DNA of 44,603 nt from Azovibrio restrictus (GTDB lineage: Bacteria > Bacteroidota > Bacteroidia > Chitinophagales > Chitinophagaceae): the NCBI GenBank assembly GCA_029255605.1, contig JANLJF010000066.1:1-44603 (forward strand), written 5' to 3'. The notes below the pieces were generated by a model. That model made no database searches and was not told the origin of the DNA. It saw only the letters and a list, made by a program, of their open reading frames with translations. Shown here in pieces: positions 35,608 to 39,416 of this stretch. The first letter of the stretch is position 1. Each line of letters starts with the position of its first letter. The position numbers and the translations under genes were made by a program.

Positions 35608-36105
35608 ATGTCACAGATCGAAGCACTTGTAAAAGAAATGGACCAGGAAGCGGCTACTACCCGCAAAATGCTGTCGCGCATACCTGATGATAAATATGAC
35701 TGGAAACCGCATGAGAAGAGTATGACCATCCGCCAGTTGGCCACCCATATAGCCGAGCTGCCGTCGTGGGTATCATTGGCTTTGGATACTGATGAACTGG
35801 ATTTTGCTACCAGCCCTTATAATCCGCAGGTAATAAATAACACCAACGAACTGATGGCGCTATTTGAAAAGGAATATGCGGCCGGAAAGCAGCGCCTGCA
35901 ACAGGCTACAGATGCCGATTTATTGCCAAACTGGACATTGCGCAATGGCGAAGAGATATATTCCGTAAATACCAAGGGAGAAACCATCAGGCATGCCTAT
36001 TGCCAGGTAGTGCACCACCGTGCGCAGATGGGTGTGTACCTACGCCTGCTGGATGTTCCGATACCCGGTAGCTATGGCCCAAGCGCAGATGAGATGAACT
36101 TCTGA
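35608..36105 (+). CDS. DinB/YfiT-like putative metal-dependent hydrolase
   Basis: A 165-residue four-helix-bundle protein of the DinB/DUF664 superfamily. Two or three metal ligands are recognisable: His in the second helix (IRQLATHIAELPSW), then His residues in QVVHHRAQMGVYLRLL near the end. Bacteroidetes encode many such proteins; some act in thiol-dependent transferase or detoxification reactions, but the substrate is unknown. It has its own terminator before the TetR gene. Confidence 0.83.
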   Translation: MSQIEALVKEMDQEAATTRKMLSRIPDDKYDWKPHEKSMTIRQLATHIAELPSWVSLALDTDELDFATSPYNPQVINNTNELMALFEKEYAAGKQRLQQATDADLLPNWTLRNGEEIYSVNTKGETIRHAYCQVVHHRAQMGVYLRLLDVPIPGSYGPSADEMNF

Positions 36106-36110
36106 TAATG

Positions 36111-36142
36111 AGTGTTGCCGGTTATTTTCCGGCAGCACTTTA
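36111..36142 (+). terminator. Probable terminator of the dinB-like gene
   Basis: AGTGTTGCCGG / CCGGCAGCACT forms an 11-bp stem (one T-G pair) with a TTATTTT loop and a short TT tail. The tail is weak, so efficiency is uncertain. Confidence 0.6.
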
Positions 36143-36155
36143 AAATATTTTATAA

Positions 36156-36175
36156 ATAAGTGAACATTCACTTAT
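36156..36175. promoter_or_regulatory. TetR operator O1 (perfect palindrome overlapping the promoter)
   Basis: ATAAGTGAA-CA-TTCACTTAT is a perfect palindrome with 9-bp arms. It overlaps the -7 element (36173-36180) of the TetR gene, so binding would block the gene's own transcription. A degenerate copy precedes the next operon (36796-36811). Confidence 0.75.
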
Positions 36176-36180
36176 ATTTG
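36173..36180 (+). promoter_or_regulatory. Putative -7 promoter element of the TetR gene
   Basis: TATATTTG matches TAnnTTTG. It ends only 6 bases before the ATG at 36187, so the transcript would start at or near the ATG. Confidence 0.6.
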
Positions 36181-36186
36181 CGCGCA

Positions 36187-36777
36187 ATGCGAACCCGTAA
36201 TACCGACAAGGAGCAATTAGTAAAAAGCAAAGCTATAGACCTGCTGCTGCGCGATGGCCTGGAAGGTTTCAGTGTGAACAAGCTGGCAAAAGAGTGTGGC
36301 ATATCTGTAGCTACCCTGTATATCTATTATAAGGATAAGGACGACCTTATCATGCAGATAGGACAGGAAGAAGTGAAAAACATGAGCGCACAGATGCTGG
36401 AAGGTTTTGACCCGGAAGCAAAATTTGAAGAAGGCCTGCGTGTGCAGTGGAAGAACCGCGCCAAATGTGTGCTGAATAACCCCAAAATTGCGCAACTGTT
36501 TGAGCAACTGCGTACCTCTACCTATCACGAGGCTATTATGGATGCCTTCAAAAATGAGTTTAAAGAACACATGGGCCGTTTTATGAAGAATGCAGTAGAC
36601 AGGGGAGAGATATTGGCCATGCCGGTAGAAGTGTATTGGTCTATAGCTTATGCACCGCTCTACAACCTGTTGCGGTTTCATAACGAAGGCAGGAGCCTTG
36701 CCGGTAAAAAATTTGTAATAAATGACAAGATCATGTGGCAAACATTCGACCTGGTTTTGCGAGCACTGAAGAAATAA
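36187..36777 (+). CDS. TetR/AcrR-family transcriptional repressor
   Basis: A 196-residue regulator. The DNA-binding helices occupy about 12-58 (KSKAIDLLLRDGLEGFSVNK, LAKECGISVATLYIYYKDKDDLI), with a helical ligand-binding C-terminal domain beginning near residue 65. The frame extends upstream to 36160, but ATG 36187 is the better start because O1 and the -7 element lie immediately before it. O1 and a related site upstream of the next operon suggest autorepression plus control of the HMA-like/MFS pair. A small-molecule inducer is likely; its identity is unknown. Confidence 0.92.
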   Translation: MRTRNTDKEQLVKSKAIDLLLRDGLEGFSVNKLAKECGISVATLYIYYKDKDDLIMQIGQEEVKNMSAQMLEGFDPEAKFEEGLRVQWKNRAKCVLNNPKIAQLFEQLRTSTYHEAIMDAFKNEFKEHMGRFMKNAVDRGEILAMPVEVYWSIAYAPLYNLLRFHNEGRSLAGKKFVINDKIMWQTFDLVLRALKK

Positions 36778-36795
36778 TTTTTTTCAGCGGCTTAT

Positions 36796-36811
36796 AAATG
36801 AGCATTTATTT
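36796..36811. promoter_or_regulatory. TetR operator O2 (degenerate copy of O1)
   Basis: AAATGAGCATTTATTT aligns with the central 16 bases of O1 (AAGTGAACATTCACTT) at 12 of 16 positions, all differences being transitions. It also contains its own palindrome ATAAATG-AG-CATTTAT (36794-36809). It lies 27 bases before the HMA-like gene, the expected place for an operator of the efflux operon. Confidence 0.6.
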
Positions 36812-36838
36812 ATTAACACTAACTGAAAACACACCACT

Positions 36839-37066
36839 ATGCCTTCACAACCTAAAAGCGTACTGGTTTTTAAAACCAACCTGAAAGAACAAAAAGACAT
36901 ACATGCGGTAAAAGATGTGCTGGATGCGCACAGGCATATCACCAGGTGGAGCGTAGATACAGGGGATGAAGATTGTGTGCTGCGCCTGGAAACAACTGCT
37001 AATTGCACAAATGACATTATACAATTAATAGAACAGAATGGCTACAAATGTGCCGAACTGGAATAA
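36839..37066 (+). CDS. Small HMA-fold-like protein without the metal-binding CxxC
   Basis: A 75-residue protein with a beta-alpha-beta-beta-alpha-beta pattern resembling heavy-metal-associated domains: SVLVFKTNLKEQKDIHAVKDVLDAH, ITRWSVDTGDEDCVLRLE, NDIIQLIEQNGYKCAELE. The metal-binding Cys-x-x-Cys that follows strand one in true HMA domains is absent; cysteines occur only at scattered positions. Similar short proteins are, to my recollection, common in Bacteroidetes, with unknown function. The MFS transporter gene starts 8 bases after its stop, so the two are almost certainly cotranscribed and TetR-controlled. Confidence 0.75.
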   Translation: MPSQPKSVLVFKTNLKEQKDIHAVKDVLDAHRHITRWSVDTGDEDCVLRLETTANCTNDIIQLIEQNGYKCAELE

Positions 37067-37074
37067 ATCACTTT

Positions 37075-38388
37075 ATGGAACAACAGAAACCAGCTATACC
37101 AACATTCAGTAATTACCAGAAATTCCTGGTAGCTATCCTCGCACTACTGCAGTTTACAGTGGTGCTCGATTTTATGGTCTTATCACCTCTTGGCGACATC
37201 CTGATGAAAACACTGGACATTACACCGTCCGGCTTCGGGCTGGTAGTGTCTGTCTATGCCTTCAGTGCCGGTATATCCGGCATCCTGGCGGCAGGCTTTG
37301 CCGATAAGTATGACCGGAAAAAACTATTGATGTTTTTCTACACCGGCTTTATAGCAGGTACGCTATTTTGTGCACTGGCGGCCAATTTCTGGATGCTACT
37401 GGCTGCACGCATTGTTACCGGCCTTTTTGGTGGTGTAATAGGCTCTATCTCCATGGCTATTATTACCGATATGTTTGAAGTGCATCAGCGTGGACGCGTG
37501 ATGGGGATGGTGCAAATGGCATTTGCCGCCAGCCAGGTACTGGGCATACCTATCGGTATCTGGTTTGCCAACCAATGGGGCTGGCACTCTTCCTTCCTGA
37601 TGATCGTAGCACTGGCTATAGGCATACTGGCAGCCGTATTTTTCAAAATGAAACCGGTAGATAAGCACCTGGCCTTGCAAACAGATAAAAACCCACTGCT
37701 GCACCTATGGCATACACTTTCTGATAGTCATTACCGCGTAGGTTTCACCGCCATTGCTTTGCTATCGGTAGGTGGTTTTATGATGATGCCTTTTGGTAGT
37801 GCTTACCTGGTGAATAACATTGGTATCTCTCAGCAGCAATTGCCATTAGTATTTATGTTCACAGGCATCTCTTCTATTGTCATTATGCCGCTGGTAGGTA
37901 AGCTTAGCGATAAGATGGATAAATTCATACTGTTTACAGCAGGTTCTTTACTGGCTATCACAATGGTTATTATTTATACCAATCTATCTGTTACACCATT
38001 ATGGGAGGTAGTAGTTATAAACATGATCATGTTCATGGGTATCATGAGCCGTATGATACCGGCCACTACCCTCAACACCAGCATACCTGAAATGAAAGAC
38101 CGTGGTGCTTATATGAGTATCACTTCATCGCTGCAACAGATAGCCGGTGGTTTTGCCGCGATACTGGCCGGTTTTATCATTACGCAGAAAACAAAAACAA
38201 GCCCGCTGGAGCATTATGATATTCTGGGTTATGTGGTATCGGGTGTTACGCTGCTATGTATCGCATTGGTATATCGTGTCAGCGTAATGGTGAAAAACAA
38301 AGCCGCCGCACGTGAAATAGAAAAGATAAATGCCGCCCTTGCACAGAAGCATGAAGAGCGACTGGCCGCACAGGTAATTGATAAATAA
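37075..38388 (+). CDS. MFS transporter (drug/H+ antiporter-like)
   Basis: A 437-residue inner-membrane protein with about 12 membrane segments. The motif A region between TM2 and TM3 reads AAGFADKYDRKKLL, close to the GxLaDrxGrrr pattern, and GFGLVVSVYAFSAGISGILAA and RIVTGLFGGVIGSISMAII are typical of sugar- or drug-efflux MFS proteins. The repeat half motif GKLSDKMDKFILF lies after TM7-8. ATG 37075 fits the family; the frame is open nine codons further. Probably exports the ligand sensed by the adjacent TetR protein. It ends at a strong two-way terminator. Confidence 0.92.
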   Translation: MEQQKPAIPTFSNYQKFLVAILALLQFTVVLDFMVLSPLGDILMKTLDITPSGFGLVVSVYAFSAGISGILAAGFADKYDRKKLLMFFYTGFIAGTLFCALAANFWMLLAARIVTGLFGGVIGSISMAIITDMFEVHQRGRVMGMVQMAFAASQVLGIPIGIWFANQWGWHSSFLMIVALAIGILAAVFFKMKPVDKHLALQTDKNPLLHLWHTLSDSHYRVGFTAIALLSVGGFMMMPFGSAYLVNNIGISQQQLPLVFMFTGISSIVIMPLVGKLSDKMDKFILFTAGSLLAITMVIIYTNLSVTPLWEVVVINMIMFMGIMSRMIPATTLNTSIPEMKDRGAYMSITSSLQQIAGGFAAILAGFIITQKTKTSPLEHYDILGYVVSGVTLLCIALVYRVSVMVKNKAAAREIEKINAALAQKHEERLAAQVIDK

Positions 38389-38442: not shown

Positions 38443-38943
38443 TTAAGCACGTGAAGCGAAGTATTCGTCCAGGTTGCCGAGTGCCATAGTGAAGCCTTCT
38501 TCGAAACCCATAGTCATGATAGTTTCAAAATCAGCTTCATTTGCAAAGTGTATCTCTATAATTACTTTAGTCTTATCGTCACCATCTGCATGAAAACTGT
38601 TGTGCCAGTTCATGCTGGGTAGCTCATTGGTAGGGTTGCCATGCTCATCGCAAAAAGCATCTGTAGCATTATAGCTTTTTTGCGGGTTGATAGCCGAGTA
38701 GCTGATCTTTGCATATTGTTTGGTACCATCCGGCCCTACCATTGCGTATAGCCAGTAGCCACCATTACGAAAATCCATTTCCTGGGTTTCTGCTTTCCAT
38801 GGTTTAGGCGCCCACCATAAGTCCAGCAGTTCGCTTTGTGTCCAGGCAGCCCATACATCTGCCACATTCGCATCAAAATACCGGGTTACCGTTACCTTTT
38901 TGTTAGGCAGGTCTTTTACCATTTCCATTTTGTTATTTGTCAT
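38443..38943 (-). CDS. AHSA1/SRPBCC-domain protein
   Basis: A 166-residue START-like protein: [34 protein letters not shown] at the N-terminus, [19 protein letters not shown], and the C-terminal helix [16 protein letters not shown]. Members bind hydrophobic ligands in a deep pocket and are very often encoded behind an ArsR regulator, as here. The gene begins 11 bases inside the end of the regulator gene, so translation is coupled. The ligand is unknown. Confidence 0.9.
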
Positions 38944-39259
38944 GACGTTTAGATTTTATGTTAGCCAATACTTTATCTAGGTTATCAAATTTGCTTTCCC
39001 ATATATTGCGGAATTGTTCCAGCCACTTATCTATCTCTTTCATCTTCTTAATATTCAGATGGTAATAAATTTCACGTCCATTTTGTTCCTGTTTCAATAG
39101 TTCGCATTCGGACAGTATTTGTATATGTTTGGATACTGCCTGCCTGCTGCTGTCAAAATGTTCAGCTATTGCATTGGGGGTCATAGCTTGTAAGGCTATC
39201 AGGGCCAGTATAGCGCGCCTCGTAGGGTCTGCTATGGCCTGAAATACATCTCGTCTCAT
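38933..39259 (-). CDS. ArsR/SmtB-family transcriptional regulator
   Basis: A 108-residue winged-helix repressor: [74 protein letters not shown]. It lacks the Cys ligands of metal-sensing ArsR proteins (no CVC motif), so a non-metal signal is likely. ATG 39259 gives the normal start; the upstream extension to 39316 runs through the promoter and operators. Two related palindromes in the promoter suggest autorepression. First gene of an operon with the AHSA1 gene. Confidence 0.9.
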
Positions 39260-39270
39260 TGATATTATTG

Positions 39271-39286
39271 GCAACTGTTCAGTTGC
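39271..39286. promoter_or_regulatory. ArsR operator O1 (perfect palindrome)
   Basis: GCAACTG-TT-CAGTTGC is a perfect palindrome with 7-bp arms, located between the -7 element and the ArsR ATG, where a bound repressor would block transcription. A related copy lies 26 bases further upstream (39297-39312). Confidence 0.75.
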
Positions 39287-39293
39287 AAATATA
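39286..39293 (-). promoter_or_regulatory. Putative -7 promoter element of the arsR-AHSA1 operon
   Basis: TATATTTG on the minus strand matches TAnnTTTG and touches O1, 27 bases before the ATG at 39259. The start of transcription would fall inside O1. Confidence 0.65.
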
Positions 39294-39296
39294 AAT

Positions 39297-39312
39297 GCAA
39301 TTATTCGGTTGC
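39297..39312. promoter_or_regulatory. ArsR operator O2 (near copy of O1)
   Basis: GCAATTATTCGGTTGC matches O1 at 13 of 16 positions. It sits just upstream of the -7 element, so the two copies bracket the promoter core. Confidence 0.65.
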
Positions 39313-39416
39313 GCAAAATTTATTTTTTGGATAGCGCATATGATGTACATATAAATTGTCGTAAAACACCCCTGTAATTAGTCGGTCAACACCCCTTCTG
39401 GATTGTGCAGAGAAAT

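Follow-up and report, generated by a model that had tools for sequence, protein, structure and literature searches.

Gene pairs encoding an ArsR-type regulator and an AHSA1 protein (COG3832) are frequent and still unexplained. They have been regarded either as resistance modules or as possible toxin-antitoxin systems, the latter on the basis of gene-pair statistics (Makarova et al. 2009, PMC2701414). Rv2035-Rv2034 of M. tuberculosis is listed as a pair of this type (PMC3968373), and a Stenotrophomonas pair was non-toxic in the kill-rescue assays described in passages of PMC7650669. The locus analyzed here is situated in a stretch of 44,603 nucleotides (the window, meaning this whole stretch). 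It resembles the ArsR-COG3832 modules in the gene pair itself, in the lack of a metal-binding motif and in the presence of several copies per genome; the passages of PMC2701414 dealing with these modules describe no operators, no double-operator promoter and no helix-to-half-site code. Searches of the open-licence PMC literature revealed no account of such operators or of such a code either, which is not proof of absence.

The window ArsR possesses an ArsR-type HTH domain (PF01022, 30.1 bits, cut-off 22; PF12840, 47.5 bits, cut-off 27; NF033788, 76.2 bits, cut-off 55). Its best-scoring subfamily is SdpR (NF033789), which likewise comprises small ArsR-fold repressors (autorepressors by name). 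However, the score of the window ArsR (78.3 bits) is below the cut-off of this family (100), and the SdpR protein of a Staphylococcus plasmid record adjoins SdpI rather than AHSA1. An AF2 model of the window ArsR (pLDDT 89.0) has the winged-helix ArsR fold with residues 39-51 as the predicted recognition helix, its closest PDB match being 6j05 (Z 13.4, rmsd 1.9, 82 residues). SmtB and CzrA have the same fold but use metal sites, and the operators of SmtB are arranged in tandem. NolR (4OMY/4OMZ/4ON0) shares the winged-helix fold as well (Z 10.8 and 10.6), and the structural alignment of ArsR residues 1..85 with NolR residues 18..102 places the invariant R39 on NolR Gln56. Gln56 contacts bases in NolR, which reads bases mostly from alpha4 (PMC8960804). 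Nevertheless, the NolR target (A/T)TTAG-N9-A(T/A) differs from the GN2AN4N5-N6 arrangement found here, and the passages of PMC8960804 concerned mention no AHSA1 partner for NolR. The AHSA1 protein of the window was assigned to PF08327 with 64.8 bits (cut-off 22.1); its solved relatives are named solely uncharacterized, putative or hypothetical proteins.

Table 1. Positions of the predicted elements of the arsR-AHSA1 locus in the window
Feature	Positions	Strand	Remarks
-33-like element TTTG	39314..39317	(-)	20 bp before TATATTTG, 1 bp from O2
Operator O2, GCAACCGAATAATTGC	39297..39312	(-)	between -33 and -7 elements
-7 promoter element TATATTTG (TAnnTTTG)	39286..39293	(-)	between O2 and O1
Operator O1, GCAACTGAACAGTTGC	39271..39286	(-)	overlaps last base of -7 box and expected transcription start
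arsR, 108-aa SdpR-like ArsR repressor	38933..39259	(-)	ATG 39257-39259, stop 38933-38935
Codons of recognition-helix residues 39-44 (RQAVSK)	39128..39145	(-)	specificity residues 40, 41, 44
AHSA1/SRPBCC gene, 166 aa	38443..38943	(-)	PF08327 match

On the minus strand, the elements of the window locus follow each other in the order TTTG, O2, TATATTTG, O1, arsR and AHSA1 (Table 1). We take TATATTTG to be the -7 box, in keeping with the TAnnTTTG element of the Bacteroidota -33/-7 consensus. On the forward strand the two putative operators read GCAACTGTTCAGTTGC (39271-39286) and GCAATTATTCGGTTGC (39297-39312); both are 16-bp palindromes, they are identical in 13/16 positions, and their centres are 26 bp apart. 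With up to three mismatches to the first site allowed, the window contains three matches, two of which are one place read on both strands (0.49 expected; 0/100 shuffles reach three). The window has one pair of palindromes of this quality 23-30 bp apart, whereas 0/40 dinucleotide shuffles have any. The preliminary description had reported two matching palindromes 26 bp apart around TAnnTTTG as well as an 11-base overlap of arsR and AHSA1, and both are confirmed, the overlap comprising positions 38933-38943. The start of arsR was taken as the ATG given in Table 1; the TTG start at 39316 in the list of open reading frames lies upstream of the operators.

Two palindromic candidate operators within one Bacteroidota-type promoter form a layout whose conservation extends to the arsR-AHSA1 pair downstream. 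ArsR homologues were taken from the relatives, from 80 named genome contigs (nearly all labelled Bacteroidota, one labelled Acidobacteria) and from class and phylum samples; loci with less than 70 bases upstream, proteins below 80 aa and identical 80-base upstream stretches were dropped, leaving 323 non-redundant loci. An unbiased scan for two similar palindromes 16-60 bp apart gave a distance of 26 bp in 104/134 non-redundant loci with an identity of at least 60%, in 16/32 loci at 45-60% and in 2/13 below 45%, compared with 4/537 on shuffles. A narrower scan, confined to 23-30 bp and also scoring the -7 box, revealed a scored operator pair within 130 bp in 278 of the 323 loci; 44 had no pair at a score of at least 20 within 130 bp, and one had no helix motif. 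A pair scoring at least 20 is present further upstream in 10 of these 44 (L008, L012, L150, L165, L171, L196, L198, L220, L225, L242). About 12 loci, not counting the operator-less group described below, possess one operator only, so that two operators are not essential everywhere. An AHSA1-like open reading frame directly follows arsR in 168/190 loci, as counted with an HMM iterated on those same 190 loci.

Searches with the pattern itself led in the same direction: the exact double-operator pattern has 21 matches in 19/149 genomes and a relaxed version 43 matches in 27/59 genomes, with no match for either reversed control. Among the 30 relaxed matches that were fetched, 28 are located before arsR, and two are not, L366 preceding AHSA1 alone and L365 a DoxX_2 gene; the 13 unfetched ones are near listed ArsR coordinates (by-eye comparison). 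One of the 28, L343 (= L008), has a small open reading frame without family assignment between the double operator and arsR. L031 (G129:C204) carries, downstream of its double operator, a broken remnant of arsR and then a reading frame for AHSA1. The occurrence of the motif before orthologous arsR-AHSA1 operons, which had been named beforehand as a check, is borne out by the 278 loci, and the suggested autoregulation of the operon through two matching operators around its promoter gains support. The particular sequence GCAAyTrTTCrGTTGC, however, is only one of several spellings; which of them is used can be predicted from the recognition helix.

The locus is best described by what the layout and the covariation suggest together: very probably, it is a self-repressing ArsR-AHSA1 switch with two operators in a Bacteroidota-type promoter, which are read by a residue code and block RNA polymerase. 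That ArsR binds its own promoter we infer from operator conservation and covariation. One ArsR dimer would sit on each operator, O2 filling the -33/-7 spacer and O1 starting at the -7 element; with both dimers bound, RNA polymerase would be unable to engage -33/-7 or to start at +1. Both arsR and AHSA1 would thus stay off until a ligand or a thiol signal frees the dimers, and the code would keep the ArsR-AHSA1 paralogues of one cell off each other's promoters.

The recognition code was an unexpected result. As shown by covariation, ArsR residues 40, 41 and 44 predict bases 2, 4 and 5 of the half-site GN2AN4N5. Mutual information peaks at the pairs residue 40/base 2, residue 41/base 4 and residue 44/base 5, and in the model these residues are placed at the start of the recognition helix. 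Q40 goes with C or A and P40 with T at base 2, A41 with A and T41 with G at base 4, and K44 with a pyrimidine and L44 or Q44 with G at base 5; having Q40, A41 and K44, the window ArsR is expected to read GCAAC. The half-sites of the loci are spelled GCAAC, GTAAC, GTAGY, GCAGY, GCAAG or GTAAG, and the spellings of O1 and O2 change together between loci. Counted as half-sites (four per locus), the first set had at base 2 C in 390 and A in 90 cases with Q40 (no T or G) and T in 123/124 with P40; at base 4 A in 487/492 with A41 and G in 97/100 with T41; and at base 5 C/T in 546/560 with K44, G in 20/20 with L44 and G in 17/20 with Q44. The later loci gave T in 129/140 (P40) and C in 20/20 (Q40) at base 2, A in 163/164 (A41) and G in 4/4 (T41, one locus) at base 4, and C/T in 124/124 (K44) and G in 16/16 (L44 or Q44) at base 5. 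It is plausible that Gln would read the amino group common to C and A, and Pro would touch the thymine methyl.

In its original form the rule considered inner half-sites only, and it then failed at base 2 for several Pro40 loci of the first later set (e.g., L195, L200, L204, L208, L213, L243, L247). Before the second later set was scored, the rule was revised: Ser41 was taken to give A and Arg44 a pyrimidine, and an A at base 2 was ignored unless alone. The first guess, that Ser41 reads G, had to be rejected (A 23, G 5). The second later set comprised 88 loci, 81 of them with a scored pair and 80 fully scorable, and the prediction was right at all three positions in 77/80. Of the three misses (L257, L291 and L328), two seem to be off-register pairs and the other a half-degenerate one; all were kept as misses. 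Single-operator loci fit the code as well, for instance those with GTAAC and RPAISK (L073, L077, L210) or with GCAAG and RQAISL (L228). In a related group of nine loci whose proteins start with DVFQVIADP or DAFQVIADP (L099, L101, L103-L109), no such operator was found upstream; eight of the nine carry RPAVSK (L104 is the one that was not read), and this operator-less group counts against a simple universal form of the code rule.

The correlation could also reflect mere shared ancestry, each orthologous group having its own helix and its own operator, with no residue reading any base. Indeed, the code classes largely follow clades. In a tree of 275 proteins, built with the helix columns left out, residue 40 changed at least six times, residue 41 at least four times and residue 44 at least six times; independent changes on the well-supported (starred) branches are few, though (2, 2 and 1 pairs, respectively), all in the expected direction and too few for significance. 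Nevertheless, 6/8 residue combinations occur, each obeying the per-position rule, and close pairs switch residue and base together. The Mucilaginibacter proteins of L173 and L191, which share 84% identity outside the helix, are distinguished by A41T, with half-sites GCAAC/T and GCAGT, respectively; L171 and L008 (82%) differ by A41T with a base change in 3/4 half-sites; and L061 and L287 (87%) differ by Q40P with GTAGC/T versus GCAGC/T. Shared ancestry also fits poorly with the peak of mutual information, which falls precisely on residues 40, 41 and 44, where the recognition helix begins; we regard shared ancestry as a very improbable account of the code.

The distance between the operators is 26 bp in 225 of the 278 loci, 24 bp in 18, 28 bp in 15 and 25 bp in 12; distances of 27 bp (5 loci), 29 bp (2) and 30 bp (1) are rarer. 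An identical geometry (TTG, 1 bp, O2, 3 bp, TAnnTTTG, with a promoter spacer of 20 and O1 starting on the last G of TAnnTTTG) was found in 204/278 loci, and all six fixed bases of TAnnTTTG are matched in 242/278 promoters. Where the operators are 24 bp apart, the promoter spacer is 18 (13 loci), and where they are 25 bp apart, it is 19 (12 loci), together 25/30 loci. As the promoter spacer shortens equally in these loci, the 26 bp appears to track the promoter and not helical phase. At an operator spacing of 28 bp (10 loci) the promoter spacer is still 20, and O1 is shifted 2 bp downstream. The position of each operator is thus tied to that of its promoter box, with the spacing as a consequence, and this argues for a simple double blocking of the polymerase over a chosen helical phase. 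A fixed helical-phase device was rejected on the ground that spacing and promoter spacer vary together. The idea put forward in the preliminary description, that 26 bp had been chosen to set two dimers on opposite faces of the DNA, is not supported by this promoter-tied range of 24-30 bp.

The spacing might still be functional in itself, if two dimers touched across 2.5 turns and wrapped or bent the promoter cooperatively. Apart from the predominance of 26 bp, an asymmetry of the half-sites speaks for this. Among the 137 loci of the Q40/A41/K44 class, A occupies base 2 of the outer half-sites in 60 (O2 left) and 51 (O1 right) cases but that of the inner ones only in 4 and 1, which makes the composite site mirror-symmetric. 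On the tree, the outer-A state switches at least 17 times, and a dimer-dimer effect would explain the asymmetry. On the other hand, the spacing follows the promoter spacer as described above, the P40 classes are devoid of the outer-A pattern, and the pattern is kept both at 24 bp, where each outer half-site has A in 7/10 loci, and in the single 29-bp locus, so that no fixed helical phase is needed for it.

Loci with another type of promoter bear on this point as well. In a cross-phylum comparison of 15 plasmid-record loci, a pair 25 or 26 bp apart is present in three, Spirosoma L372 (itself Bacteroidota), Metabacillus L374 and Phaeobacter L378 (scanned from both candidate starts). Mammaliicoccus L381 has a single GACAC operator (by eye), and no such operator pair was found in the remaining 11/15; in L381 and L385, the scan covered the region upstream of the operon's first gene, not of arsR. 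In Metabacillus L374, the palindrome GACACCAATTAGTGTC occurs in two identical copies that flank TATAAT at a distance of 26 bp from each other, with an unannotated arsR and an SRPBCC gene downstream. The promoters, identified by eye, are TTAACA-N18-TATAAT in Metabacillus and TTGACA-N18-TATAAA in Phaeobacter, where the operators are 25 bp apart. The preservation of 25-26 bp in these two loci counts against a purely promoter-driven account of the 26 bp. On balance, a contact between the dimers is conceivable but rather unlikely, and simple double blocking of the polymerase is the reading that we follow here.

The signal to which the switch would respond may involve a thiol. The window ArsR has a single Cys (Cys52, codon 39104-39106) and no CxC motif, in agreement with the earlier statement that the regulator has no metal-binding Cys motif; Cys52 is nearly invariant, though, being present in 280/285 relatives at a position just after the recognition helix. 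In this respect the protein is unlike SmtB and CzrA, and a metal sensor of the CxC type, with a Cys-rich alpha3 site, was rejected. Exactly one Cys is found in 216/285 relatives. A second Cys at position 66 is present in 62/62 proteins of four classes (PAK 44/44, PAL 6/6, QAL 8/8, TAK 4/4) and in 2/220 of the QAK, PTK and QTK classes. The idea of a thiol signal is no more than a lead for testing.

As three residues predict the spelling of the site, separate copies of the system in one cell could be told apart. Among 20 relative genomes with at least two paralogues, the codes differ in 81/83 within-genome pairs, compared with 2166/2767 between-genome pairs; the within-genome difference comes partly from orthology, because genomes tend to hold one member per group. 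Up to five different codes occur in one genome. Only two within-genome pairs share a code, namely the window gene and its C49 paralogue, and the same two genes in G011. All of them read GCAAC, and the members of each pair may cross-regulate each other. The notion that the paralogues are mutually insulated, doubly locked switches, with a modular code, distinct signals (possibly through Cys52) and a layout older than the phylum, seems to us evenly balanced between right and wrong; the age of the layout is suggested by its presence in the Metabacillus and Phaeobacter loci. Some double operators are matched by a regulator encoded elsewhere in the genome. In G015, that of L366 reads GTAAC and corresponds to the RPAVSR of L096, and in G016, that of L365 reads GCAGY and corresponds to the RQTISK of L052. 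No arsR was found adjoining L365, whose DoxX_2 gene hints at a membrane or redox link.

These loci also concern the proposal of a toxin-antitoxin module, with AHSA1 as the toxin and an autoregulating ArsR as the antitoxin, which passages of PMC2701414 derive from gene-pair statistics. A small autoregulated two-gene operon in several copies would fit such a module. However, AHSA1 stands behind a double operator with no adjacent arsR in L366, its reading frame is kept behind the broken arsR in L031, and the Stenotrophomonas pair was not toxic; we give this proposal little credence compared with a self-repressing switch. With the three-residue operator code, the cognate targets of every regulator in a genome could be identified, those in trans included, and function guessed from them. 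The code would also supply natural and apparently orthogonal repressor/operator pairs for Bacteroidota and illustrate clearly how paralogous repressors avoid interfering with each other.

In the window, positions 35608-38388 contain a DinB-family gene, a TetR regulator, a 75-aa open reading frame without Pfam match and an MFS transporter gene, whose end is 54 bases from the end of AHSA1, the two genes being in opposite orientations.
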